Origin: Hymenobacter sublimis
GTDB lineage: Bacteria > Bacteroidota > Bacteroidia > Cytophagales > Hymenobacteraceae
DNA length: 64,000 bases
Direction of reading: 5' to 3'
Assembly (NCBI RefSeq): GCF_023101345.1
Contig: NZ_CP095848.1
Coordinates: 2,045,501-2,109,500 of the forward strand
Shown here: positions 9,536 through 64,000 of the stretch, piece by piece
Position numbering within the stretch: position 1 is the first letter of the stretch
Layout of the letters: every line of letters starts with the position of its first letter
Notes under the pieces: model-generated
The model's input: the letters and a program-made list of their open reading frames with translations, nothing else
Told to the model about the DNA's origin: nothing
Databases searched by the model: none
Program-made: the position numbers and the translations under genes

Positions 9536-11044
9536 CTACAGGCTAATGGGGCGGCCCTGATAGAAGTCGAGCACCTTCCGGCGGAAGATAAACTCGTACT
9601 TGGCCTGAATCATCGTGGACTCGGCGGCCGTCAGGTTGTTTTTGGCGATGTTAAACTCGGTGCCGTTGAGCAGGCCGTTGTTAAAGCGAATTTCGGCGTT
9701 GCGGTAGGCGGTGGTCAGCGCCTCCACCTGGCGGCGGGCAGAGAGGTAACGACGCTGGGCCGCAATGGCATCGGCGTAGGACTGCTGAATGCTCTGGCGC
9801 AGCTGCAGGCGCGTTTGCTCGGCGCGCAGCTCCTGCTGCTGAATATTGATTTGGGCCCGCTGCACGCCCGTACGAGTTTGCAGTCCGTTCAGAATGGGGA
9901 TTTGCAGCGAGAACTGCAGGCTCTTACCCAGGTTGTCCTTCAGCTGACTGGTAAAGCCCGAGGGCAACAGCTCCGGAATGGCCTGCTTGGGCTGGAGCAG
10001 AAAGTACTGCGACGGCACCGGCTGCCCGCCCACGCCCGGCTGGAATACCGGCACGGCTACGGCCTCCGTAGAGTCGCCGTTAAACACCCGCGCCAGCCGC
10101 GAAGAAGAGAAACCAGTGAAAATTCCGGCCCCGAAGGCCAGGCGGGGGTAGTAGGCGCCGCGGGCAATGTCGAGGCTGCGTTGGGCGGAGCGCACGCGCA
10201 AGTCGGCGGCCTTAATTTCGGGTAGCAGGCTCTGGGCCGTCTGGTAGGTGCCGTCCGGGTCGGCGCTGAGCAGGGGCTCATCGTCGGGGTCGGCCAGGGG
10301 CGGCACTTCAATCTGGAAGCCCGTCGGCGAGGGTAGGTTCAGCAGCTGCGTCAGCGAGAGACGGGCCAGGTCGCGCTGGTTTTGGGCCGTAATAACGTTC
10401 AGCTCGTCGGAGGCTAGTTGGGCCTGAATATCAAGCAGATTGCTTTCCGGAATGGCGCCGGCTTTAAGCAGCTTCTGGGTGCGCTCCACCTGGGCCTGAG
10501 TGCTGCTCACGCGCACCTCATTGGTGCGCACCAGCTCCTCGGCCAGCACCAACTGCAGAAATGCCGAGGCCACGTTCAGGGCCAGGTCATTGCGCGACTT
10601 GTCAATATCGAGCAGGCTAGCCTCAGCGTCCAGGGCATTGCGCTTCACGGTGTTGCGCAGCTGAAAGCCCGCAAATAGCGTTACCTGGGTGTTGGCCGAG
10701 AAGTTGTTGGAGCGAATCGTTTGGCTGACGAAGTCGTTGGTCAGCGGGTCAAGGCTGGTGCCGTAGTTCCAGGCCTGGGTACCGGAAAGGTTGGCCGTGG
10801 GTAGCAAAGCCGCCTGGCTCTGGCGCAGGGTAGCGTTCTGCAGCGTAGAGGTAAGCTGCTGCTGGCGCACCGTAAGGTTGTTTTGCAGGGCGTAGTCGAT
10901 GGACCGTTGCAGGGTCCAGGGGCCGGTAGGCACGGCGGGCGAAAGCGTGCCGGCCGGGGGTTGGGTCGGCGGCGTCTGGGCCAGTACCGGGCTCGTCAGC
11001 ATACCCGCCGACATACTCATCAACAGCCAGTAAAAACGCTTCAT
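9536..11044 (-). CDS. TolC-family outer membrane efflux channel
   Basis: A 502-residue outer membrane factor with a signal peptide (MKRFYWLLMSMSAGMLTSPVLAQ) and two repeats of long alpha-helical hairpins typical of OEP domains, for example LTVRQQQLTSTLQNATLRQSQ near the start and the second repeat beginning near ALTTAYRNAEIRFNNGLLNG. It would form a trimeric channel contacting the periplasmic adaptor encoded next (8021-9439). The start is taken at 11044, where a clean signal peptide begins; an in-frame extension to 11161 adds a non-signal sequence of unusual composition. No transport substrate can be inferred. Confidence 0.92.
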   Translation of the reverse strand: MKRFYWLLMSMSAGMLTSPVLAQTPPTQPPAGTLSPAVPTGPWTLQRSIDYALQNNLTVRQQQLTSTLQNATLRQSQAALLPTANLSGTQAWNYGTSLDPLTNDFVSQTIRSNNFSANTQVTLFAGFQLRNTVKRNALDAEASLLDIDKSRNDLALNVASAFLQLVLAEELVRTNEVRVSSTQAQVERTQKLLKAGAIPESNLLDIQAQLASDELNVITAQNQRDLARLSLTQLLNLPSPTGFQIEVPPLADPDDEPLLSADPDGTYQTAQSLLPEIKAADLRVRSAQRSLDIARGAYYPRLAFGAGIFTGFSSSRLARVFNGDSTEAVAVPVFQPGVGGQPVPSQYFLLQPKQAIPELLPSGFTSQLKDNLGKSLQFSLQIPILNGLQTRTGVQRAQINIQQQELRAEQTRLQLRQSIQQSYADAIAAQRRYLSARRQVEALTTAYRNAEIRFNNGLLNGTEFNIAKNNLTAAESTMIQAKYEFIFRRKVLDFYQGRPISL

Positions 11045-11199
11045 AAAATCAGGAGTGTAGAGCTGATGGCCGGCTGATCGGCACCGAAGCCGGCCGCCCC
11101 AGTGGCCGGGGCCACTAAAGGTATTGATCTGCCCGCAGCAGTGCGCGGGGAAATCAACCAACCGGGCACCATAGGCGGTTAACCGGGCAGTTTGGGCCG

Positions 11200-11880
11200 T
11201 TAGTCGATGGTGGGAATATACGTGACACGGTGCACCCAGCGCAATTGCCGCAGGTAGTCTAGGGTAATGGGGCGCAGGCCGGAGTCTACTTCAATGAACT
11301 GCCGGGCCGCGTCGTTTTTGCCCTTACGCGAGACGAACATGGTGGCAATATTGCACTCATCGTGGGCAATGACGGAGGCAATAAAAGCAATGGAGCCCGG
11401 CACGTCGTCGGCATCAATGATGAGCGTGTGCAGAGAGGCCGAGAAGTCGGCCGGGAAGCCATCTACCTCCACAATGCGGATAACGCCCCCGCCCCGGCTC
11501 TGACCAATAACCTCGACGGCGTGGCCCGTGCGCTCATCGCGCAGCTGCAGCCGAATGGTGTTGGGGTGCATGGTGGAGGCATTGCCTACACCCTGAAAGG
11601 TGTACTGGAGCCCCGCTTCCTTGGCGTGGTCGAAAGCCTCCCGGATGCGCACGTCATCGGTGGGCATGCCCAGCAGGCCGGCCACAATGGCGCGGTCGGA
11701 GCCGTGGCCCTCGTAGGTGCGGGCAAAGGAGTTATAGAACGTAATGGTGGCGTGGGTGGGGCTGCTGCCTAGGATGCGGATGGCCGCCCGCGCTATGCGC
11801 ACTACCCCGGCCGTGTGCGAGGAACTGGGCCCAATCATCACGGGCCCAATCATATCGAAAATACTGGATTTCTCTGCCAT
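11200..11880 (-). CDS. sdaAB: L-serine dehydratase, iron-sulfur-dependent, beta subunit
   Basis: A 226-residue protein matching the beta subunit of two-subunit L-serine ammonia-lyases, which convert L-serine to pyruvate and ammonia. The serine-dehydratase beta signature GPSSSHTAG is at residues 17-25, and FYNSFARTYEGHGSDRA follows. The C-terminal part (about 150-226) looks like an ACT domain (LIIDADDVPGSIAFIASVIA). The alpha subunit, which carries the [4Fe-4S] cluster ligands, is not next to it and is not in the window, so it must be encoded elsewhere. The gene is upstream of, and co-directional with, the TolC-type gene but 155 bases away. Confidence 0.9.
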   Translation of the reverse strand: MAEKSSIFDMIGPVMIGPSSSHTAGVVRIARAAIRILGSSPTHATITFYNSFARTYEGHGSDRAIVAGLLGMPTDDVRIREAFDHAKEAGLQYTFQGVGNASTMHPNTIRLQLRDERTGHAVEVIGQSRGGGVIRIVEVDGFPADFSASLHTLIIDADDVPGSIAFIASVIAHDECNIATMFVSRKGKNDAARQFIEVDSGLRPITLDYLRQLRWVHRVTYIPTID

Positions 11881-12049
11881 TGCGTAAAGGTAGAAGATGA
11901 AGGGAATAGTAAGTGGGCGAGTTGCGTCATGGGGGGCGGTATCAAAACTATCCGACCTCTCTTCTGTGACACACTCTCAAGTAGGACAAGACCTTGGTGT
12001 ATGGTAGCATCAAAGGCCTGTCACGTTTCAAGGGGTAGCACTGCGTGAA

Positions 12050-12075
12050 GGACGGATGGACGCGCTCCGCTCGCC
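12050..12075 (+). repeat. Dispersed repeat element, copy A
   Basis: GGACGGATGGACGCGCTCCG and the bases after it closely match the reverse complement of 22492-22517; most positions are identical over 26 bases. Just before it, GGTAGCACTGCG (12034-12045) also begins a partly matching stretch at 19744-19770. These appear to be members of one intergenic repeat family. The rest of the 286-base gap 11881-12166 shows only the promoter of the following gene. Confidence 0.6.
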
Positions 12076-12116
12076 AGGACGCGGCTTACTACTTCACTCA
12101 CCTCAGCGCCTTTTCC

Positions 12117-12124
12117 CATCTTTG
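12117..12124 (+). promoter_or_regulatory. -7-like promoter element for the dioxygenase gene
   Basis: CATCTTTG deviates from TAnnTTTG by the first base only and is followed by CAG, as in other promoters of this window. It lies 43 bases before the ATG at 12167. Confidence 0.45.
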
Positions 12125-12166
12125 CAGCGTAGCCCCCACTACTACCCCTTCCTTCCGCCCTTGCTC

Positions 12167-13144
12167 ATGACCTCTCCGGAATCAGAATTTTCGCCGGCCG
12201 TGCTGGCCCAGCTACGCCGCCTGCAGGCGCGCTACGCCGCCGACGACCAGGATCTGGCCGCCTACCTCGAAGGCCTCTACTATACCCGCTACCTCGGTTA
12301 CTGGGACTATATCCAGCTGGATGCCCTGTTGAGTTTGCAGCGCCCACTTACCAACATTCCCGACGAGCGGATTTTCATCATCTACCACCAGATTACGGAG
12401 CTGTACTTTCAGCTCTGCCTCTGCGAATATGAGCAGCTAGGCGACCTGCAGCAGCCCACCGTAGAGGAAATCGTGCTGCGCGTGGGCCGCATCAACCGCT
12501 ACTTCGAAAACCTGATCGACTCGTTTGATGTGATGGTCGATGGCATGGACAAGCAGCAGTTCCTGGAGTTCCGGATGGCCCTGATGCCGGCCTCGGGCTT
12601 TCAGAGCGTGCAGTACCGCATGATTGAGCTGGCCAGCACTTCCCTCAGCAACCTGGTACCGGAGGAGCGCCGCCGCCTACTGGGCTCCGCCGCGGCCCAC
12701 GACGAACTGATGGGCTGCATCTACTGGAAGTCGGGGGCTACGGTGGTAGAAACCGGAGCCAAGGCGCTTACGCTCATTGAGTTCGAGAAAAAGTACGCCG
12801 ACAAGCTGCTGGAACATTCCCGCCACTTTGAGGGCCGCAACGTGTGGGCCGTGGTGCAGCGCCTCCCCCCCGGCCCCACCGGCCAGCAGCACCAGCGCCT
12901 GCTGCGCCAGCTCAAGCAGTTGGATGTGTGCGTAAACGTGAACTGGCCCCTGATGCACTACAAATCGGCGGTGCGCTACCTGGAGCGCCGCCCCGAGGCC
13001 ATTGCTGCTACCGGCGGCACCAACTGGAAGCAGTATCTGCCGCCCAAGTTTCAGCGCCGCATCTTCTACCCCCAGCTCTGGACCGAGCAAGAGCTAGCCG
13101 ACTGGGGCAAAGGCTGGGTGGAAAGTGTGCTAGGCAGCGAGTAA
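12167..13144 (+). CDS. Tryptophan 2,3-dioxygenase family protein
   Basis: A 325-residue all-helical protein. Recognisable family segments are YLGYWDYIQLDALLSLQRPL near the start, the active-site helix FIIYHQITELYFQLCLCE, and near the C-terminus MHYKSAVRYLERRPEA followed by ATGGTNWKQYLPP, matching the haem-side helix and the (T)GGTxxxxYL motif. Tryptophan 2,3-dioxygenases open the indole ring to give N-formylkynurenine using haem. The protein is more divergent than a canonical TDO, and kynurenine-pathway genes are not next to it, so the exact substrate is not certain. The start at ATG 12167 is taken because the promoter-like box and repeat lie within the longer frame from 12056. Confidence 0.8.
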   Translation: MTSPESEFSPAVLAQLRRLQARYAADDQDLAAYLEGLYYTRYLGYWDYIQLDALLSLQRPLTNIPDERIFIIYHQITELYFQLCLCEYEQLGDLQQPTVEEIVLRVGRINRYFENLIDSFDVMVDGMDKQQFLEFRMALMPASGFQSVQYRMIELASTSLSNLVPEERRRLLGSAAAHDELMGCIYWKSGATVVETGAKALTLIEFEKKYADKLLEHSRHFEGRNVWAVVQRLPPGPTGQQHQRLLRQLKQLDVCVNVNWPLMHYKSAVRYLERRPEAIAATGGTNWKQYLPPKFQRRIFYPQLWTEQELADWGKGWVESVLGSE

Positions 13145-56171: not shown

Positions 56172-57635
56172 TTGACCTCCTGGACCGAAGCACAGGCCCG
56201 CGCCCTCATCACCGACCCCGGCACCCTCAAGCGGGGCCAGGAGCTAGCCGCCCCCGCCAAGTGGAGCAACCTGGGCCAGACCGACACCGCCGCCTGGGGC
56301 GAGTGCAAGGGCAGCGGCAGCACGCCCTACCAAACCGGCATCGACCTACAAGAGCCTGCTTTTAAGTGCTCGTGCCCCAGCCGGGTGTTTCCTTGCAAGC
56401 ACGGCGCGGGCCTGCTGCTACTGCTGGCCCGCCAGCCTCAACTGCTGAGCAGCCCTACCCCGCCGCCCTGGCTACAGGAATGGCTAGCCAAGCGTCAGCA
56501 AACGGCCGGCAAACAACCAGCCCAGCGCACCATCCAGCAGGACGCCCACCTCTCTGGCTTACCGGCACCGGTTGAAAACAACGATTCTGGGGCGGCTTCC
56601 GAGGCGGAACTGGCCCGGCAGAAACGGGAAGCCCAGCGCCTAGTCCGCATGCAGCGCGGGGCCGAGGAGTTGGAAACCTGGCTGCTGGACCTGATTCGGG
56701 CGGGGTTGGCGGCGACGGAAAGCCAGCCCCCGAGCTTCTGGGAAAACCAGGCCGCCCGCCTCGTCGATAACCAACTGCCGGGGCTAGCCGCTAATATTCG
56801 GGAGCTGGCGGCCCTGCGCCACCAAGGCACCGACTGGCCTGAGCGCATGCTGGCCCGCCTCGGCGAGTTGTATTTGCTGGTGCGCACGGTGCCGCGGCTG
56901 GAGCAGCTGCCTGCTGCTACCCGCCAGGAAATACTGCAGCAGTTGGGCGTTTCCGTCAAGAAAGAAGAGGTAGTGGCCACCCAACCGGGGGTAGCAGACA
57001 CGTGGTGGGCACTCAGCCAAACCACCACGGAAGAAGACCGCCTGACGGTGCGCCGCAGCTGGCTGCAAGGGCAGGAAACAGGTCGTTTTGCGCTGGTCGT
57101 GGAGTTTTCCTTCGGGGGCCAGGCCTTCGCTACGCCCCTGATGCCGGCCGGGTGCTACACCGGTAGCCTTTCGTTTTACCCGGGGCTGTTGCCGCTCCGA
57201 GCCGTGCCGGGCGAGCTAGCCTTTACCGGTACTTACTCGCTGGCCCCGCTGGGTAGCACGGGCCCCGCCCAACTGCTCAACGACTACGCTACGGCTCTGG
57301 CCCAGCAGCCCTGGCTGCGGGAGCTGCCGGTGCTGCTCGCCGGGGGCGTGCCGCATCAGACGGCTAGCGGAGACTGGGTGCTGCATTTCCCAACTCATGG
57401 CTACGTAACCGCCGACACCTCTACTACCTTACCCGGTAACCCTGCTACCCCAATCGAGCATCAGCCGGACCGTGAGGTGGCGCTTCCGCTGCGCTGCGAC
57501 GAGCTGACCGGCTGGGAGTTGCGGGCCCTCAGCGGCGGGTACCCGCTCACGGTGTTCGGCGAGTGGACCGGCGCGGCACTACGCCCGCTTACCTGCTGGC
57601 CGGCACCTTCGCCCGTTTCCAATCCCGCCTGCTAA
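56172..57635 (+). CDS. SWIM zinc finger protein (YehQ-like)
   Basis: A 487-residue protein with a SWIM zinc-binding motif near the N-terminus: Cys66-x-Cys68 and Cys75-x-His77 in the segment FKCSCPSRVFPCKHGAG. Start appears to be TTG 56172, preceded by GAAGAA. The remainder is helical with a beta-rich C-terminal part. SWIM modules bind DNA or protein; SWIM proteins of this length are a constant part of the MoxR/VWA gene cluster, to which E. coli yehQ belongs. Here it leads a block with DUF5691, MoxR and DUF5682 genes. Its stop overlaps the next ATG by one base (TAATG), so translation is coupled. Confidence 0.82.
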   Translation: MTSWTEAQARALITDPGTLKRGQELAAPAKWSNLGQTDTAAWGECKGSGSTPYQTGIDLQEPAFKCSCPSRVFPCKHGAGLLLLLARQPQLLSSPTPPPWLQEWLAKRQQTAGKQPAQRTIQQDAHLSGLPAPVENNDSGAASEAELARQKREAQRLVRMQRGAEELETWLLDLIRAGLAATESQPPSFWENQAARLVDNQLPGLAANIRELAALRHQGTDWPERMLARLGELYLLVRTVPRLEQLPAATRQEILQQLGVSVKKEEVVATQPGVADTWWALSQTTTEEDRLTVRRSWLQGQETGRFALVVEFSFGGQAFATPLMPAGCYTGSLSFYPGLLPLRAVPGELAFTGTYSLAPLGSTGPAQLLNDYATALAQQPWLRELPVLLAGGVPHQTASGDWVLHFPTHGYVTADTSTTLPGNPATPIEHQPDREVALPLRCDELTGWELRALSGGYPLTVFGEWTGAALRPLTCWPAPSPVSNPAC

Positions 57636-59230
57636 TGTCAGAGACGCCAACCACTACCCCCGCGCCCGCGCTACAACCGGCCACCGACTGGCAGCGAATT
57701 CTGCGCGTGGCCCTGCTCGGTAGCCGCCAGGCACCTGATGCGCTGCCGGATGCGGGCCTCAAGCTCCCAGAGTCAAACACTCACCCTGATTACCGCGAAA
57801 AGCAGGTTTTGCTAACCGCCGGTACTTTATCCTTGATCCGCAAAGCCGGCTTCCGGCCCGCGCCCGTACCGGCCTTCGCTTCTGACGTTCCCGTAGTCGC
57901 CCCGCCGGATACGGCGCCGCCCTTGGGCCCGGCTGGCGCCCAGCTGCTTGCGCAACTACTGGAAGGCACGCACGCCGCCCTGCTGCGCGGTTTCCTGGAA
58001 GACCTGCCCCGCCACGGCCGCCGGGTGCCCCACCAATTGCTGGTGTCGCTGCTGGAGTACGCCCGCCCACGGCCCGACTTGCACGCGGCAACGGCCGCTG
58101 TGCTGGGCCAACGGGGCGTGTGGCTGGCCGCTCAGAACCCAGCTTGGCAGCCTATTGTAGCGGGTAGTCGGGCGGTTGAGGAAGCGGTGTGGGAAACTGG
58201 TACGATCCGGGAGCGGGTGAATTTCCTTACCCACCTTCGCGGCGCCAGCCCGGCTCAGGCCCGCGAATTGCTGGCCGCCACCCTACCCCAGGAGCCGGCT
58301 AAAAACCAAACGGCGCTGCTGGAAGCCCTCGGCACGGGGCTTAGCCCAGCGGACGAAGCCCTGCTGGAACAGTACCTAACGTCGAAAAGCAAGGAAGTCC
58401 GGCAGGCCGCCCGGTTGCTCCTGGCCCGCGTGCCGGGTAGCCAGTTGGTGGAGCGGCTGTGGCAGCGCGTCGAGCCCCTGTTGCAGCTCAAGCGGGGCCT
58501 GCTCAGCAAGAAGCTACTGCTGGAACTGCCCGCCCAAGCCTGGGATAAAACCTGGCTGACCGATGGCGTTGAGCAGCGCGACACCCGGTTTTCCGGCGAC
58601 AAGGCGGCCCTGCTCGGCCAGATGGTGGCTCTACTTCCGCCCCACCGGTGGTCAGGGCACTGGAATATCGCACCAACCAAGCTCCTCGACTTGGCCGCGG
58701 GTACTGAATGGGCGGCTCTATTGCTCAGCGCCTGGGCCGAAGCCGCTATTCTTCATCACGATGCAGGCTGGGCCGTTGCCCTGTTGGAATGGTTTTTTGA
58801 GCAGCCCCGCAAGCTGGCAACCACCCTACCCGCCGCTGGGTTGGTTAAGCTTCTCTCAGCAACTCAGCTAACGGATTTGGTGCTGCCCCTGCTCAATGCT
58901 ACCCCTCATCTTACCCCGGATGTTCGCTGGCTGCCCCTGTTACTGCTGGTGCCCGCGCCCTGGCCCGAGCGCCTGACGCGCCGAGTGGTAGAACTGCTGC
59001 GTGACGCCCTAAGCCGGCCAGAACAACTCCACCGGATTCACTACGCCGCTAGCCAGCTGCTGGAGCACATGGCCCAGGTGGTGCCTGCCGCGCAGCACGA
59101 CCTCTGCGCCCAGCCCCTGCAGCCCCTGCTGCAAAACGTGCCCTACCTCCACAACAGCCTCGCCCGCCTGCTCAACGCCCTGCACTTTCGCCAGCAGTTA
59201 GAAGCCGCCCTGAACGAGCCGCCCGGTTAA
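57635..59230 (+). CDS. DUF5691 family protein
   Basis: A 531-residue cytoplasmic protein, Leu/Ala-rich and helical, with repeats such as QLLAQLLEGTHAALLRGFLE and EQYLTSKSKEVRQAARLLLAR reminiscent of HEAT-like repeats. The N-terminus WQRILRVALLGSRQAPDALP fits DUF5691. The ATG at 57635 overlaps the stop of the SWIM gene. DUF5691 proteins occur next to SWIM and MoxR genes, suggesting a scaffold in the complex. Function is otherwise unknown. Confidence 0.78.
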   Translation: MSETPTTTPAPALQPATDWQRILRVALLGSRQAPDALPDAGLKLPESNTHPDYREKQVLLTAGTLSLIRKAGFRPAPVPAFASDVPVVAPPDTAPPLGPAGAQLLAQLLEGTHAALLRGFLEDLPRHGRRVPHQLLVSLLEYARPRPDLHAATAAVLGQRGVWLAAQNPAWQPIVAGSRAVEEAVWETGTIRERVNFLTHLRGASPAQARELLAATLPQEPAKNQTALLEALGTGLSPADEALLEQYLTSKSKEVRQAARLLLARVPGSQLVERLWQRVEPLLQLKRGLLSKKLLLELPAQAWDKTWLTDGVEQRDTRFSGDKAALLGQMVALLPPHRWSGHWNIAPTKLLDLAAGTEWAALLLSAWAEAAILHHDAGWAVALLEWFFEQPRKLATTLPAAGLVKLLSATQLTDLVLPLLNATPHLTPDVRWLPLLLLVPAPWPERLTRRVVELLRDALSRPEQLHRIHYAASQLLEHMAQVVPAAQHDLCAQPLQPLLQNVPYLHNSLARLLNALHFRQQLEAALNEPPG

Positions 59231-59287
59231 GAGCGCATCACTTCTGCCGAATTCCCTACCCCTTCTTCCTTCGCTAACCCCTCGATT

Positions 59288-60388
59288 ATGGCCCTGAACA
59301 ACCCCGCCGCCGACATCCTGCGCCCCCACGCCGAGGTGCAATACGCCGAAGAACTCGCTGCTCTGATCGACATCGACGACCGGCCCAAGCCGCCGAACTG
59401 GAAACTCTCGCCCTGGGCTGTGGTGACCTACCTGCTGGGCGGCACCCTGGACAACGGATTCGAAATCGAGCCCAAATACATTGGACAGCGGCGGCTGATG
59501 GAAATTGCCGTAGCCACCCTAGCCACCGACCGCGCCCTGCTGCTGCTCGGCGTGCCCGGCACGGCCAAAAGTTGGGTGTCGGAGCACCTGACGGCGGCCA
59601 TTAGTGGGCACTCCAACCTGCTGATTCAGGGCACGGCGGGCACTTCAGAGGACGCCATTCGCTACTCCTGGAACTACGCCCGTCTCATTGCCGAAGGGCC
59701 TTCCACGGCGGCGCTGGTACCTTCGCCCCTGCTCAAAGGCATGCAGGAAGGGGCTCTGGTGCGTGTGGAGGAGCTTACCCGCATTCCCTCCGACGTGCAG
59801 GACACGCTCATCACGGTGCTTTCCGAAAAGGTGCTGCCCGTGCCCGAGCTGGCCACCGAGGTGCAGGCCACCCGCGGCTTCAACGTTATTGCCACCGCCA
59901 ACGACCGGGACAAGGGCGTGAACGAGCTGAGTAGCGCCCTGCGCCGCCGCTTCAACACCGTAGTGTTGCCCCTACCCACTTCCGTAGCGGAGGAAGTACA
60001 GATTGTGCACTCGCGGGTGGAGAAAACCGGCCGGGCCCTGCAACTACCGCCCACGACCACGGCCCTGGAGCAAATCAGCCGCCTCGTGACCATCTTCCGG
60101 GAGCTGCGCTCGGGCGTGACGGAGAACGGCAAAACCAAGCTCAAAAGCCCCAGCGGCACCCTTAGCACCGGCGAGGCTATTTCCGTGCTTAACAGCGGCC
60201 TGGCCCTGGCCGCCTACTTCGGCGACGGTACCCTGCAAGCCGCCGACCTAGCCGCCGGCCTCACTGGCGCCGTCATCAAAGACCCCGTTCAGGACCGCGT
60301 AGTGTGGCTAGAGTACCTGGAAACCGTTGTAAAGGAGCGCGACGGCTGGAAGGATTTGTATAGGGCTTGCCGGGAGGTAGTGGAGTAG
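59288..60388 (+). CDS. MoxR-type AAA+ ATPase (YehL-like)
   Basis: A 366-residue AAA+ ATPase of the MoxR branch. Walker A is GVPGTAKS at residues 88-95; Walker B is ALVRVEEL at 156-163, with Glu-Glu instead of Asp-Glu, as in the YehL subgroup; sensor 1 is IATAND at 201-206 and the Arg-finger type ALRRRF at 217-222. The C-terminal 130 residues form the lid. MoxR ATPases remodel proteins together with VWA partners, usually to insert metal or to activate a complex. This is the energy-using member of the 56-64 kb block, 57 bases after DUF5691. Confidence 0.92.
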   Translation: MALNNPAADILRPHAEVQYAEELAALIDIDDRPKPPNWKLSPWAVVTYLLGGTLDNGFEIEPKYIGQRRLMEIAVATLATDRALLLLGVPGTAKSWVSEHLTAAISGHSNLLIQGTAGTSEDAIRYSWNYARLIAEGPSTAALVPSPLLKGMQEGALVRVEELTRIPSDVQDTLITVLSEKVLPVPELATEVQATRGFNVIATANDRDKGVNELSSALRRRFNTVVLPLPTSVAEEVQIVHSRVEKTGRALQLPPTTTALEQISRLVTIFRELRSGVTENGKTKLKSPSGTLSTGEAISVLNSGLALAAYFGDGTLQAADLAAGLTGAVIKDPVQDRVVWLEYLETVVKERDGWKDLYRACREVVE

Positions 60389-60399
60389 ATTATTGGTGT

Positions 60400-61452
60400 A
60401 TGAGACTACTTCTAACGCTAAGTCTGCTCATTCTGAACCTGAGTACCGTGGGACAGACTAGCAGAAAAAAGCCAAAGCAGCCTACAACAACACTCTATGG
60501 CGGTTATAAAGACGTAGTTGCACTGGACAGTACCTTATGGGCCGTAGACGCAAGTGGGCACTTAGCGTCCTTTACTTCTGCGGGAGAAGAACGCCCTTTG
60601 AGCACCACTCTAAAAGTCCCTATCACCAGTATTCATGCTACCGGTAAAGATGAGTTGCTAGTTGTTTGCGGCCAGGACATCTATCTTCTCAATTCCAAAA
60701 CCCAGGCCTGCACGTATGAAGCGAAACTGCCGCCTAAAACTGTTTTTCTCGCCCGCGACAACCGGAAGCAGGTTTGGGCAGCCACGGAAACCGGTTTGCT
60801 GAATGTGGCCACCAATCAGTCTTTCGTGCCTGACTCTACCCTGAATCATTATTACAAATGGCGCCCCCAACCATCAGCCGCGTTACTTGACTCTTATAAT
60901 ATTCTATGGATTGGCTTTGACATGGGAGAATGGGGCGGCAACCTCCAGGTATTTGATACGAATTTGCAGCGTTTCGTTCCGGTTGGTTTTGCTGATACGC
61001 TGGCCCGTTTATGCCCCGTGAATTCTTTCTGTGAAGCAGAAACCCAAATGTATCTATCTGGCGCAGTGACACATGGTTCAAATTCCAGTTGCATAACCCG
61101 TTTTGACAAACTTCAAGCGAAACGTGTTTTCAACAGCAGCTGGCGTGAGAATTATAGAACCATGGTATTTGGCGACCCAGGTGGGGAATACATCAGTACC
61201 ATTGCTTACAGCCTAACAGAAAACCGCCTGTATTATAATTCACAGAACGGCATTTACAGAGCGCCGATTAATATGGAGTTGCATCAGCAAGATGCCTGGC
61301 AGCTTGTGTGTGCACCCATGTCATCGTGGCCAACAGATCGTCGCCAACATGTGAGTAAAATGGTCTTCACCTCAGATAACAAGCTGGTACTACTGGTTGA
61401 GAATAATGCTTTGGGTATTTGGGACGGTCGGATTTTAACTCTTATACCCTAA
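60400..61452 (+). CDS. Secreted beta-propeller-like protein inserted in the MoxR block
   Basis: A 350-residue protein with a signal peptide (RLLLTLSLLILNLSTVGQ, cleavage near residue 19). Repeating segments resemble two-component-regulator propeller blades: KQVWAATETGLLNVATN near 135 and NILWIGFDMGEWGGNLQVFD near 180, plus WAVDASGHLASF earlier. It is less G/C-biased at third codon positions than the neighbours and is exported, whereas the other members of the block are cytoplasmic. It starts 11 bases after the MoxR stop and ends 2 bases before the DUF5682 start, so it is embedded in the operon. Its role is unknown; it may be a late insertion. Confidence 0.72.
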   Translation: MRLLLTLSLLILNLSTVGQTSRKKPKQPTTTLYGGYKDVVALDSTLWAVDASGHLASFTSAGEERPLSTTLKVPITSIHATGKDELLVVCGQDIYLLNSKTQACTYEAKLPPKTVFLARDNRKQVWAATETGLLNVATNQSFVPDSTLNHYYKWRPQPSAALLDSYNILWIGFDMGEWGGNLQVFDTNLQRFVPVGFADTLARLCPVNSFCEAETQMYLSGAVTHGSNSSCITRFDKLQAKRVFNSSWRENYRTMVFGDPGGEYISTIAYSLTENRLYYNSQNGIYRAPINMELHQQDAWQLVCAPMSSWPTDRRQHVSKMVFTSDNKLVLLVENNALGIWDGRILTLIP

Positions 61453-61454
61453 GT

Positions 61455-63752
61455 ATGCCCACCGAACTGCGCCTTTACGGCATCCGCCACCATGGGCCCG
61501 GCAGCACGGCCTCCCTGCTGAAGGCCCTGGACGAGTTCCGGCCTGATATGGTGTTGCTGGAGTGCCCAGCCGATGGGGAAAAGGCCCTGGCGCTGGCGGC
61601 TAACCCGGCGCTGAAGCCCCCAGTGGCCCTGCTGATGTATAACCCCAAGCAGCACCAGCAAGCCTCGTTTCTGCCCTTCGCTTACTTCTCGCCGGAGTGG
61701 CAGGCTGCCCTTTGGTGCCAGCAGCACGGCGCCCACCTGCGCTGCTTTGACCTACCGATGACCCTACGGTTTGCCCTGCCGGATACCGTGGAGCACGAAC
61801 TGGCCCCAGCAGCAGAAGCCCCAGCCGCTACCGAAGCCACAGCGGCAGAAGTAGTAGCACTCGCTACGAGCGGCGAGGCAACTGAAACGCTGGTTATCGA
61901 AGAAACCTCGCTCCGCTTCGACCCCATTGCCCACCTGGCCCGCCTCGATGGCTATACCGACGGGGAACGGTGGTGGGAAGCTCGCATTGAGCACTCGGCT
62001 GGCCACGCCGACACGTTCGGGGTAGTACTCCAGATGATGACGGCCCTGCGCGAGGAGCTGGCCCAACCCGAATCGGAAGAAACCCTGCTGCGCGAGGCCT
62101 ACATGCGCGAAACGCTACGCGCCACCCTCAAGCAGGGCTACCAGCGCGTGGCCGTGGTGTGCGGGGCCTGGCACGCCCCGGTGCTGCGCGCGGAGCAGTT
62201 GCCCGACTACGCCAAAGCCGACAAGGTTCGCCTCAAGGGGCTGAAGAAAGTGCCCACCGAGGCCACCTGGGTGCCCTGGACCTACGAGCGCCTGGCCCGG
62301 CAGTCGGGCTACGGGGCGGGGGTGTTGTCGCCGGCCTGGTACGAGCTGCTGTTCCAGGAGCCCCACGAGCGGGTAGTCACGCACTGGATGGTGCGGGCGG
62401 CACACTTGCTGCGGGCTCAGCAAATCGATGCGTCTTCGGCCCATGCCATTGAGGGCGTGCGGCTGGCGGAGGCCCTGGCGGCCGTGCGCGGCTTGGCCTT
62501 GCCCGGTATTGAGGAGCTGGAAGAAGCGGCCGTGAGCATCTTCGGGGGCGGCTATGCCGAGGCCCTGGAGCTGGTGCACCAGCAGCTAGTCATTGGCGAG
62601 AAGCTAGGCGAAGTGCCCGAGGAGCTGCCGGCCTCGCCCCTGCAGCAGGACCTGGGCTTGCAGCAAAAAGCGCTCCGCCTCAAGCACGAAGCCCTGTCGA
62701 AAACCCTGGCCCTGGACCTGCGCAAGGACCTCGACCTGGGCCGCAGCCACCTGCTGCACCGCCTGCAGTTGCTGGGCATCCGCTGGGGTAAGCCGCAACG
62801 CGTACAGGGCAAAAGCGGCACCTTCCACGAGGTATGGGAACTGCAATGGCGCCTCGAAATGGTGCTGGGCGTGCTGGAAGCCGGGCGCTGGGGAAACACC
62901 GTTCTGGCCGCCGCCAGCGGCGCCGCCCACCACCGCGCCCAGCAGGCCACCGACCTCGGCCAGGTGAGTCAGCTGCTAGAAGAAGCCCTGCGCGCCGACC
63001 TGGCCCCGGCGCTACCTACCCTGGTCTCCCGCCTCGAAACCATCAGCGCCGGCACCCGCGACGTGGCCCACCTGCTCACGGCCCTGCCCCCGCTGGTAAA
63101 TGTGCTGCGCTACGGCAATGTGCGGCGCACCGAAACCACCCAGGTAGCCCAAGTCGTCCATCATCTGGTGCCGCGCTTGTGCATCTCCCTGCCCCTAGCC
63201 TGCACCGGCCTCGACCGGGACGCGGCCAGTCAGCTTCTGGAGCGTATCGAGGCGGCCCACCAAGCTATTCGCCTGCTCCCCGACCCCGCCGAGCAAACCG
63301 ATTGGCAGGCGGCCCTGCACGCCATTGCCCGGCAACCGGCCAGTAGTGGCCTGCTGGCCGGTGCAGCTACCCGCCTGCTCTTCGATACCCAGCAGCTCAC
63401 CCCCAACGACACGGCCACCCTGCTTGGCCTGGCCCTGGCTCCCGCCCAACCCACCGACTACGCTACCGCCTGGATTGAAGGCTTCCTGCGGGGTAGCGGC
63501 CTGCTCCTGATTCATAATCGCACGCTGTTCGACCTGCTCGACGCGTGGCTTTCCGGCCTCGATGAAGCCGTTTTTCAGGGAACCGTACCTCTGCTGCGCC
63601 GCTCCTTCGCCGATTTCAGTCAGCCCGAACGCCAGCAGGTGCTGGCCTTGGCCGTAGGTGGCCCGGCCGTGCCAGCAGCCCAAGCTGCCGACATTGACCT
63701 GGAACGCGGACTGCGGGTGCTGCCGGTGCTGCGGGAGTTACTGGGGGTGTAG
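61455..63752 (+). CDS. DUF5682 family protein (YehM-like)
   Basis: A 765-residue cytoplasmic protein. It opens ELRLYGIRHHGPGSTASLL, the DUF5682 signature, followed by LLECPADGEKALALAANP, LMYNPKQHQQASFLPFAYFSPEW in outline, and RIEHSAGHADTFGVVLQMMTAL. The middle carries an Ala/Glu/Thr-rich insertion (about 115-150); the C-terminal half is helical with Leu-rich repeats. DUF5682 proteins, including E. coli YehM of about the same length, accompany MoxR and VWA genes. A direct catalytic role is suspected from the GIRHHGPGS motif, but none is established. It is the last gene of the block; a VWA gene does not follow on this strand. Confidence 0.88.
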   Translation: MPTELRLYGIRHHGPGSTASLLKALDEFRPDMVLLECPADGEKALALAANPALKPPVALLMYNPKQHQQASFLPFAYFSPEWQAALWCQQHGAHLRCFDLPMTLRFALPDTVEHELAPAAEAPAATEATAAEVVALATSGEATETLVIEETSLRFDPIAHLARLDGYTDGERWWEARIEHSAGHADTFGVVLQMMTALREELAQPESEETLLREAYMRETLRATLKQGYQRVAVVCGAWHAPVLRAEQLPDYAKADKVRLKGLKKVPTEATWVPWTYERLARQSGYGAGVLSPAWYELLFQEPHERVVTHWMVRAAHLLRAQQIDASSAHAIEGVRLAEALAAVRGLALPGIEELEEAAVSIFGGGYAEALELVHQQLVIGEKLGEVPEELPASPLQQDLGLQQKALRLKHEALSKTLALDLRKDLDLGRSHLLHRLQLLGIRWGKPQRVQGKSGTFHEVWELQWRLEMVLGVLEAGRWGNTVLAAASGAAHHRAQQATDLGQVSQLLEEALRADLAPALPTLVSRLETISAGTRDVAHLLTALPPLVNVLRYGNVRRTETTQVAQVVHHLVPRLCISLPLACTGLDRDAASQLLERIEAAHQAIRLLPDPAEQTDWQAALHAIARQPASSGLLAGAATRLLFDTQQLTPNDTATLLGLALAPAQPTDYATAWIEGFLRGSGLLLIHNRTLFDLLDAWLSGLDEAVFQGTVPLLRRSFADFSQPERQQVLALAVGGPAVPAAQAADIDLERGLRVLPVLRELLGV

Positions 63753-63781: not shown

Positions 63782-63877
63782 CGTCCTGCTGAGCTTGCCG
63801 AAGCATCTCTCCTCTGACTACCTCTTAATACCTATTCAACGAAGCGGGAGAGATGCTTCGGCAAGCTCAGCAGGACG
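63782..63877. repeat. 31-bp perfect inverted repeat after the MoxR block
   Basis: CGTCCTGCTGAGCTTGCCG and the rest of a 31-base sequence (63782-63812) recur as exact reverse complement at 63847-63877, with a 34-base spacer. The wording (ctgagcttgccgaagcatct) resembles a dispersed intergenic repeat; the CAAGCTCAGGATGA piece near 2800 is similar in style. It separates the DUF5682 gene from a convergent gene and may terminate both. Confidence 0.8.
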
Positions 63878-63907: not shown

Positions 63908-64000
63908 CTAGAGCACCAGCTTTTCGGCCCGAAATACGTCATCGGCGGCCTGAAGCAGCTTGGCGCGGAGCTTGGGGTTATAGGTCGGGTGGGCGGCCAG
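63908..64000 (-). CDS. C-terminal end of an unidentified protein (continues outside window)
   Basis: Read on the minus strand, the window end holds an open frame of 30 codons to a TAG at 63908, giving LAAHPTYNPKLRAKLLQAAD followed by DVFRAEKLVL. The composition fits a real protein, and it converges on the DUF5682 gene across the inverted repeat. Too little is visible for a family call. Its presence shows the operon of the MoxR block does not continue on the plus strand. Confidence 0.5.
   Translation of the reverse strand: MAAHPTYNPKLRAKLLQAADDVFRAEKLVL

Follow-up and report, generated by a model that had tools for sequence, protein, structure and literature searches.

A YehL-type MoxR/VWA operon of Hymenobacter sublimis, probably complete, with exchangeable GC-poor genes between MoxR and DUF5682

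The stretch of the Hymenobacter sublimis genome analysed here (64,000 nucleotides, contig C1:2045501-2109500, referred to as the window; the genome is labelled G000) carries towards its end the genes for a SWIM zinc-finger protein, a DUF5691 protein, a MoxR ATPase, a secreted propeller-like protein and a DUF5682 protein. This order, with all genes on the plus strand, had been proposed by an earlier sequence-only reading and was borne out by Pfam matches and coordinates. The interval separating the stop codon of MoxR from the start codon of DUF5682 is called slot 1, and the junction between DUF5682 and the gene for a VWA protein is called slot 2. The features, with protein lengths in amino acids (aa) and guanine-plus-cytosine content as GC, are:

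56172-57635, plus strand: SWIM zinc-finger protein, 487 aa, with the motif CSCPSRVFPCKH; the start codon is uncertain and TTG was assumed; relatives have homologues at the same place.
57635-59230, plus strand: DUF5691 protein, 531 aa (Pfam PF18944, E = 8.4e-122), starting inside the SWIM stop codon (TAATG).
59288-60388, plus strand: YehL-type MoxR AAA+ ATPase, 366 aa (AAA_5, E = 8.6e-36), 42% identical to E. coli YehL.
60389-61454, plus strand: variable cargo slot 1, MoxR stop to DUF5682 start, 47% GC against 64-67% in the flanking genes.
60400-61452, plus strand: secreted beta-propeller protein, the cargo of the slot in the window, 350 aa, with an N-terminal signal sequence by inspection.
61455-63752, plus strand: DUF5682 (YehM-like) protein, 765 aa (Pfam PF18934, E = 7e-239), with an N-terminal alpha/beta domain and a C-terminal helical-repeat part.
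63783-63876, no strand assigned: long inverted repeat with identical 27-bp arms, between DUF5682 and the convergent aminopeptidase gene.
63908-64000, minus strand: 3' end of an M1-type aminopeptidase gene, convergent to DUF5682 and the first gene of the 49.7-kb stretch between DUF5682 and VWA.

The convergent gene noted earlier after DUF5682 proved to be this aminopeptidase gene (63908 onward, minus strand), and the further claim that the VWA partner was lacking did not hold. In a whole-genome search the only PF05762 (CoxE-type) VWA gene of the genome was found at C1:2158906-2160015 (plus strand, E = 1.8e-48), which is outside the window, 49.7 kb downstream of DUF5682 and on the same strand. 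The encoded protein (369 aa, without a propeller) has intact metal ion-dependent adhesion site (MIDAS) residues (DQSGS, GGTD and ISDLYEGG) and is 35% identical to E. coli YehP (E = 3e-75). In a family sample of 120 genomes, 31 have DUF5682 and 28 of these form the Hymenobacter clade; DUF5682 and VWA co-occurred in exactly the same 31 genomes. Where both genes lie on one contig (30 genomes), their order and strand were constant, and the gap ranged from 41 bp to 49.7 kb, the largest being that of the window's genome and those of the other relatives running from 41 bp to 11.9 kb. Contiguity of the two genes is thus typical rather than required, with VWA close to DUF5682 in most relatives, and the window's genome departs from it. 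By inspection, the 49.7-kb stretch contains pxp genes and genes resembling those of an aminopeptidase, an amidohydrolase and an NRAMP-type transporter, and parts of this set are common to relatives. It also contains a xylan-utilisation locus (GH115, GH67, GH43, SusC/D-type proteins, UxuA and a LacI-type regulator). The VWA gene has been displaced by chromosomal genes and the xylan-utilisation locus and not lost; loss was ruled out by the intact gene. Calling an operon incomplete from one stretch of DNA can therefore mislead.

The kinship claimed earlier with E. coli yehL, yehM, yehP and yehQ stands by sequence for the first three. The 42% identity of MoxR to YehL extends over 361 aligned positions (E = 1e-81) and DUF5682 is 25% identical to YehM (E = 4e-23), but the SWIM protein has no BLAST or HMM (hidden Markov model) similarity to YehQ beyond the finger motif. 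Its Pfam SWIM score is under the cut-off, yet the C-x-C...C-x-H motif is intact. MoxR has a Walker A motif (GVPGTAKS), a Walker B motif with Glu replacing Asp (LVRVEEL), sensor 1 and an Arg finger. The same Glu stands at the expected Walker B Asp across the YehL-type MoxR proteins of the family (LVR[IVL]EEL), and E. coli YehL likewise has FEE. The E. coli order is yehL (MoxR), yehM (DUF5682), yehP (VWA) and yehQ (SWIM).

A wider sample consisted of the best 80 DUF5682 loci from species genomes, in which gene order was read where flanking DNA sufficed. Most of the loci so read had the compact arrangement SWIM-DUF5691-MoxR-DUF5682-VWA with little or no spacing, in Bacteroidota (including Chitinophaga), Cyanobacteriota, Chloroflexota, Acidobacteriota, Pseudomonadota, Planctomycetota and Verrucomicrobiota. 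In Hymenobacter, Deinococcus and Rhizobium the operon is also found on large plasmids, and DUF5682 without nearby partners was found in several Saprospiraceae and some Cytophagales genomes. Such a recognisable five-gene operon cannot be attributed to chance. Within the family the gene order was constant wherever it could be read, with insertions at the two junctions flanking DUF5682; the SWIM-DUF5691 and DUF5691-MoxR gaps were below 0.6 kb. The one-base SWIM/DUF5691 overlap (TAATG, 57633-57637) pointed out earlier is present. In 10 of 29 relatives the two genes are joined in a single reading frame, and in most of the others they overlap or are only a few bases apart. Their products therefore probably act as one unit. 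A fixed stoichiometry, which had been deduced from the overlap, gains indirect support from the fusions, but the overlap alone does not fix it.

Single genomes show frameshift-like interruptions of core genes (VWA in G004, L105; DUF5691 in G025, L084; DUF5682 on an H. radiodurans plasmid, L291 14001-16293), which may be either sequencing errors or decay. MT835988.1, an unannotated 14-kb phage record ('Bacteriophage sp.') obtained from human faecal samples, has a DUF5682 homologue at 10659-12755 (28% identity over 94%); the record may be a mis-binned bacterial contig.

Slot 1 was filled in all 28 genomes of the Hymenobacter clade, with distances between MoxR and DUF5682 of 0.7-6.9 kb, as against gaps of 15-146 bp in the other three family genomes. 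Conservation ends at the MoxR stop codon and restarts at the DUF5682 ATG, with no common border sequence. The GC content of the slot was below that of its flanks in 28/28 genomes, by 16.4 points on average (47% versus 64 and 67% in the window). For six of seven pairs of related genomes 0% of the slot DNA could be aligned, despite identities of 97-100% for RpoB, 97-99% for MoxR and 91-98% for VWA; in one such pair MoxR and VWA were each 98% and RpoB 100% identical. The seventh pair (G031/G036) had partly common slot DNA. Open reading frames of at least 100 aa in the slot were mostly codirectional with the operon (64 on the plus and 14 on the minus strand), the cargo frequently adjoins the neighbouring genes directly, and its start codon falls inside the MoxR stop codon (taATG) in several genomes. 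Site-specific integration was considered and rejected, as the slot borders share no sequence beyond the flanking coding ends and no tRNA gene was found in the downstream region read.

By Pfam and PADLOC, the cargo of slot 1 includes SUKH-1/SMI1-KNR4, DUF6985, DUF1963, 2OG-Fe(II) oxygenase and DUF6414 proteins, a pair of RusA-like and AHJR restriction endonuclease (REase)-like proteins in three genomes, Shedu SduA, and an Mrr-type nuclease with an ImmA/IrrE-type peptidase; an HSDR_N/PD-(D/E)XK protein and a HEPN Apea-like match fell under the cut-off. PADLOC matches among the relatives' cargo were SduA and the capP/RmrA models, the latter over an M78 domain. Of 82 SUKH-1 matches in the 31 genomes, 12 fell within slot 1 (62 kb in total), versus 0.03 expected by length alone (about 400-fold), the counts in related genomes not being independent events. 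Four relatives have two or three SUKH-1 genes in slot 1, and the window's own slot holds a single propeller gene. Slot 2 contains Imm51-like proteins in eight genomes (one of them Pfam-tested), a YhcG-type nuclease and ordinary chromosomal genes. In the Hymenobacter clade slot 1 is always occupied by GC-poor, quickly replaced and evidently acquired genes, many of immunity or anti-phage type. The role in conflict proposed earlier is therefore suggested by the cargo but not by the core, since MoxR, DUF5682 and DUF5691 had no PADLOC match.

Several slot families recur without a confident assignment. A small membrane protein (about 200 aa, no confident Pfam match) is found in slot 1 of G020, G044, G047, G059 and G078, and is a candidate conflict gene; a plasmid copy, related by inspection, lies at L290 13383-13994. 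Several further families of slots 1 and 2 have no Pfam match, among them one of 338 aa (G021, G035, G114) and one of 109-139 aa (G011, G021, G088, G102), and the latter starts inside the MoxR stop codon in three of its four genomes. The slot gives a first handle on the biology of the operon and a place to seek new defence genes ('guilt by slot'). Outside Hymenobacter slot 1 was rarely filled. In Allochromatium, an independent case, it holds a C5 cytosine DNA methyltransferase gene followed by an unassigned gene, possibly that of its restriction partner, and in G527 (L180 4899-7943) a gene for a protein of the DUF4132 family, to which E. coli YehI belongs. The E. coli gene yehI (DUF4132; L183 2280-5912) is located immediately upstream of yehL. 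DUF4132 could be a sixth partner that recurs with the operon.

The propeller gene is separated by 11 bases from the MoxR stop codon and by two bases from the DUF5682 ATG. Its product was modelled as nearly all-beta (predicted template modelling score 0.79), and the best structural matches were propellers, including the periplasmic sensor domains 4a2m/4a2l. The propeller had been regarded as an unusual member of the operon and its conservation as decisive; it is indeed in place, but as one of many unrelated slot cargoes. Homologues were present in 6 of the 120 family genomes, all six with the operon and all six in slot 1, and were absent from 25/31. The gene is therefore not strain-specific, but neither is it a conserved subunit, and a core role was ruled out by its presence in only 6/31 operon genomes. 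Other Cytophagales have more distant homologues; these are secreted, and their genes lie beside unrelated ones, mostly in a family without reported DUF5682. Because of this distribution the propeller is best classed as captured cargo rather than as a dedicated subunit.

Trees of the single genes fit an exchange of the cassette between lineages. In the SWIM, DUF5691 and rpoB trees the window's genome and its near relative G104 grouped with some or all of G114, G088, G047 and G098; in the MoxR and DUF5682 trees they grouped with G080, G078, G004, G035, G020, G040 and G025. In approximately unbiased (AU) tests, whose groups were named after the trees had been seen, both DUF5682 (p = 2.4e-5) and MoxR (p = 0.0014) rejected the clade of G000, G104, G114, G088 and G047, while SWIM (p = 0.0043) and rpoB (p = 5.5e-7) rejected the DUF5682-type grouping. 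The VWA gene of G004, which looks frameshifted, was excluded from the VWA test. These results indicate an ancestry of the window lineage's MoxR-DUF5682 segment other than that of SWIM and rpoB, and on the simplest reading recombination in the two conserved genes would have exchanged this lineage's MoxR-slot-DUF5682 segment for another. It is likely that cassettes are swapped by homologous recombination within MoxR and DUF5682, the conserved genes on either side, and the cargo is likely to be expressed from the operon.

MoxR ATPases with VWA partners are remodelling chaperones; NorQ/NorD bring iron into nitric oxide reductase, with a finger of the VWA protein in the ATPase pore (PMC13036017, PMC9976466). 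Midasin and NorQ were among the solved structures closest to MoxR by sequence. The DUF5682 model had a mean pLDDT (predicted local distance difference test) of 84, and the invariant residues of DUF5682 include RHHGPGS, E36 and H240. The N-terminal domain of the model superimposed on the erythromycin esterase EreC (6xcq; Z 7.2, root-mean-square deviation 3.8, 147 residues) and on a relative of it (3b55; Z 6.7). A Foldseek search with the whole DUF5682 model, dominated by the helical-repeat part, gave no match at E 0.001, and a PDB sequence search with DUF5682 gave nothing significant. We tentatively picture, as a joint proposal that falls somewhat short of being probable, a hexameric MoxR that would work with the VWA protein through its MIDAS as an ATP-driven remodelling chaperone in the manner of NorQ/NorD, with SWIM-DUF5691 as adaptor and DUF5682 as client or output, RHHGPGS, E36 and H240 forming a hydrolase-like site in its N-terminal domain. 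The proposal that MoxR/VWA may remodel or charge DUF5682 draws on the NorQ/NorD precedent, the kinship to NorQ, the DUF5682 model and its invariant residues. The cargo, in turn, might mainly use the operon as a safe and expressed landing pad for conflict genes and be no subunit of the machine, which is the reading of the cargo that we prefer although we see about as much reason to accept as to doubt it.

The locus is, in our judgement, probably a complete YehL-type MoxR/VWA machine (SWIM, DUF5691, MoxR, DUF5682 and VWA), its operon interrupted at two points, with foreign cargo in slot 1. Several points weigh against this view and the mechanism attached to it. The Z values of the DUF5682 superpositions on EreC and 3b55 are below the safe range of the tool. 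For TraB, which DUF5682 resembles in a motif (GxxHH...E...GxxH), an HH-align profile comparison with a small set of seven TraB proteins was negative. The AU p values are indicative only because of the way the groups were named, and the DUF5682-type grouping was not rejected for VWA (p = 0.15). Shared descent makes any probability derived from the SUKH-1 counts too small, although the enrichment is large, and some cargoes are not of conflict type (metallo-beta-lactamase fold, 2OG oxygenase, oxidoreductase, membrane proteins and the window's propeller).

Among the other explanations, the main rival is that the cargo could be the working end of the machine. MoxR, VWA and DUF5682 would then form a conflict system that holds or activates the variable products of the slot genes, be they effectors or immunity proteins. 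The codirectional and abutting cargo with its taATG starts, the recurring defence and immunity families, the ancestry that MoxR and DUF5682 have in common and that is distinct from SWIM, and the description of MoxR-vWA systems with hypervariable effectors (Kaur et al., PMC7159879) would all fit. However, cargo is missing from the five-gene core in most phyla, as well as from the operon of E. coli, and is therefore unnecessary for the job of the core; moreover, the cargoes have no common domain able to bind the machine, and Shedu and other systems that are complete on their own require no chaperone. We regard this explanation as rather unlikely, and as still a little less likely its more specific form, a DUF5682-centred MoxR-VWA conflict system in Hymenobacter that controls exchangeable effectors and immunity proteins in a dedicated, codon-exact slot, the cassettes being traded between species via the flanking genes. 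It is more doubtful again that the two junctions merely tolerate insertions and that cargo and VWA displacement are neutral rearrangements. Slot 2 does hold mostly ordinary chromosomal genes, and here the xylan-utilisation locus, and the genes of the operon lie scattered in several genomes of Saprospiraceae and Cytophagales, but neutrality accords poorly with a slot 1 that is filled in 28/28, codon-precise, strongly GC-poor and enriched in immunity-type genes, or with the unused SWIM-DUF5691 and DUF5691-MoxR junctions. A VWA-less variant with the propeller as a dedicated extra subunit would agree with the absence of a VWA gene adjoining DUF5682 in the window and with the location of all six family propeller homologues in slot 1. 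Its VWA part is refuted by the intact distant gene and the presence of VWA in all 31 DUF5682 genomes, and its propeller part is opposed by the lack of the propeller in 25/31 and by distant homologues beside unrelated genes, which leaves this variant highly improbable.

The inverted repeat downstream of DUF5682 is predicted to form a very stable hairpin (z -9.5). Near-copies are intergenic in several relatives and lie directly after DUF5682 in two; the repeat is therefore a member of a dispersed Hymenobacter palindrome family, and it possibly marks the end of the transcript. Rfam gave no match within 55-64 kb of the window, and a promoter scan with the sigma-70 pattern, which is not that of Bacteroidota, gave no excess versus shuffles.

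The core has been known as a gene set, the YehL subfamily (PMC3893208). Our literature search found no published function for the widespread YehL-type MoxR/VWA operon and no paper naming DUF5682, DUF5691 or bpMoxR, and YehL/M/P/Q appeared together only in two genome-content papers. Polyimmunity loci, MoxR-vWA conflict systems and defence hotspots are known; no case that combines them in one codon-exact slot within a YehL-type operon turned up in the literature searched. The E. coli yehL-yehM-yehP-yehQ operon likewise has homologous MoxR, DUF5682 and VWA genes together with a SWIM-finger gene, but the order is MoxR-DUF5682-VWA-SWIM, VWA is adjacent, no cargo separates MoxR from DUF5682 and none of yehI, L, M, P and Q was recognised as a DUF5691 homologue. 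NorQ/NorD (PMC13036017, PMC9976466) also pair a MoxR ATPase with a VWA partner, whereas the VWA protein of the genome studied here has no PDB sequence match. The MoxR-vWA ternary conflict systems (Kaur et al. 2020, PMC7159879, in whose text YehL and SWIM are absent) have in common with the present operon a MoxR and VWA core, variable partner genes and conflict-type cargo. There, however, the third component is VMAP, iSTAND, FtsH or a propeller rather than DUF5682, and a beta-propeller is fused to the vWA protein with a bpMoxR-type ATPase, whereas the Hymenobacter propeller is a separate secreted cargo; the bpMoxR model (PF20030) scored 24.6 bits on the window's MoxR, under the 27-bit cut-off. 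Polyimmunity loci (Zhang et al. 2012, PMC3482391) resemble slot 1 in that immunity-type genes, SUKH and Imm51 among them, form variable arrays that differ between close relatives, but the Hymenobacter array occupies a codon-to-codon site within a conserved operon and includes restriction-type genes. Defence hotspots flanked by core genes, such as those of Pseudomonas (PMC10250203), similarly combine constant flanks with swapped defence cargo, the difference being that in Hymenobacter the flanks are two genes of one operon.

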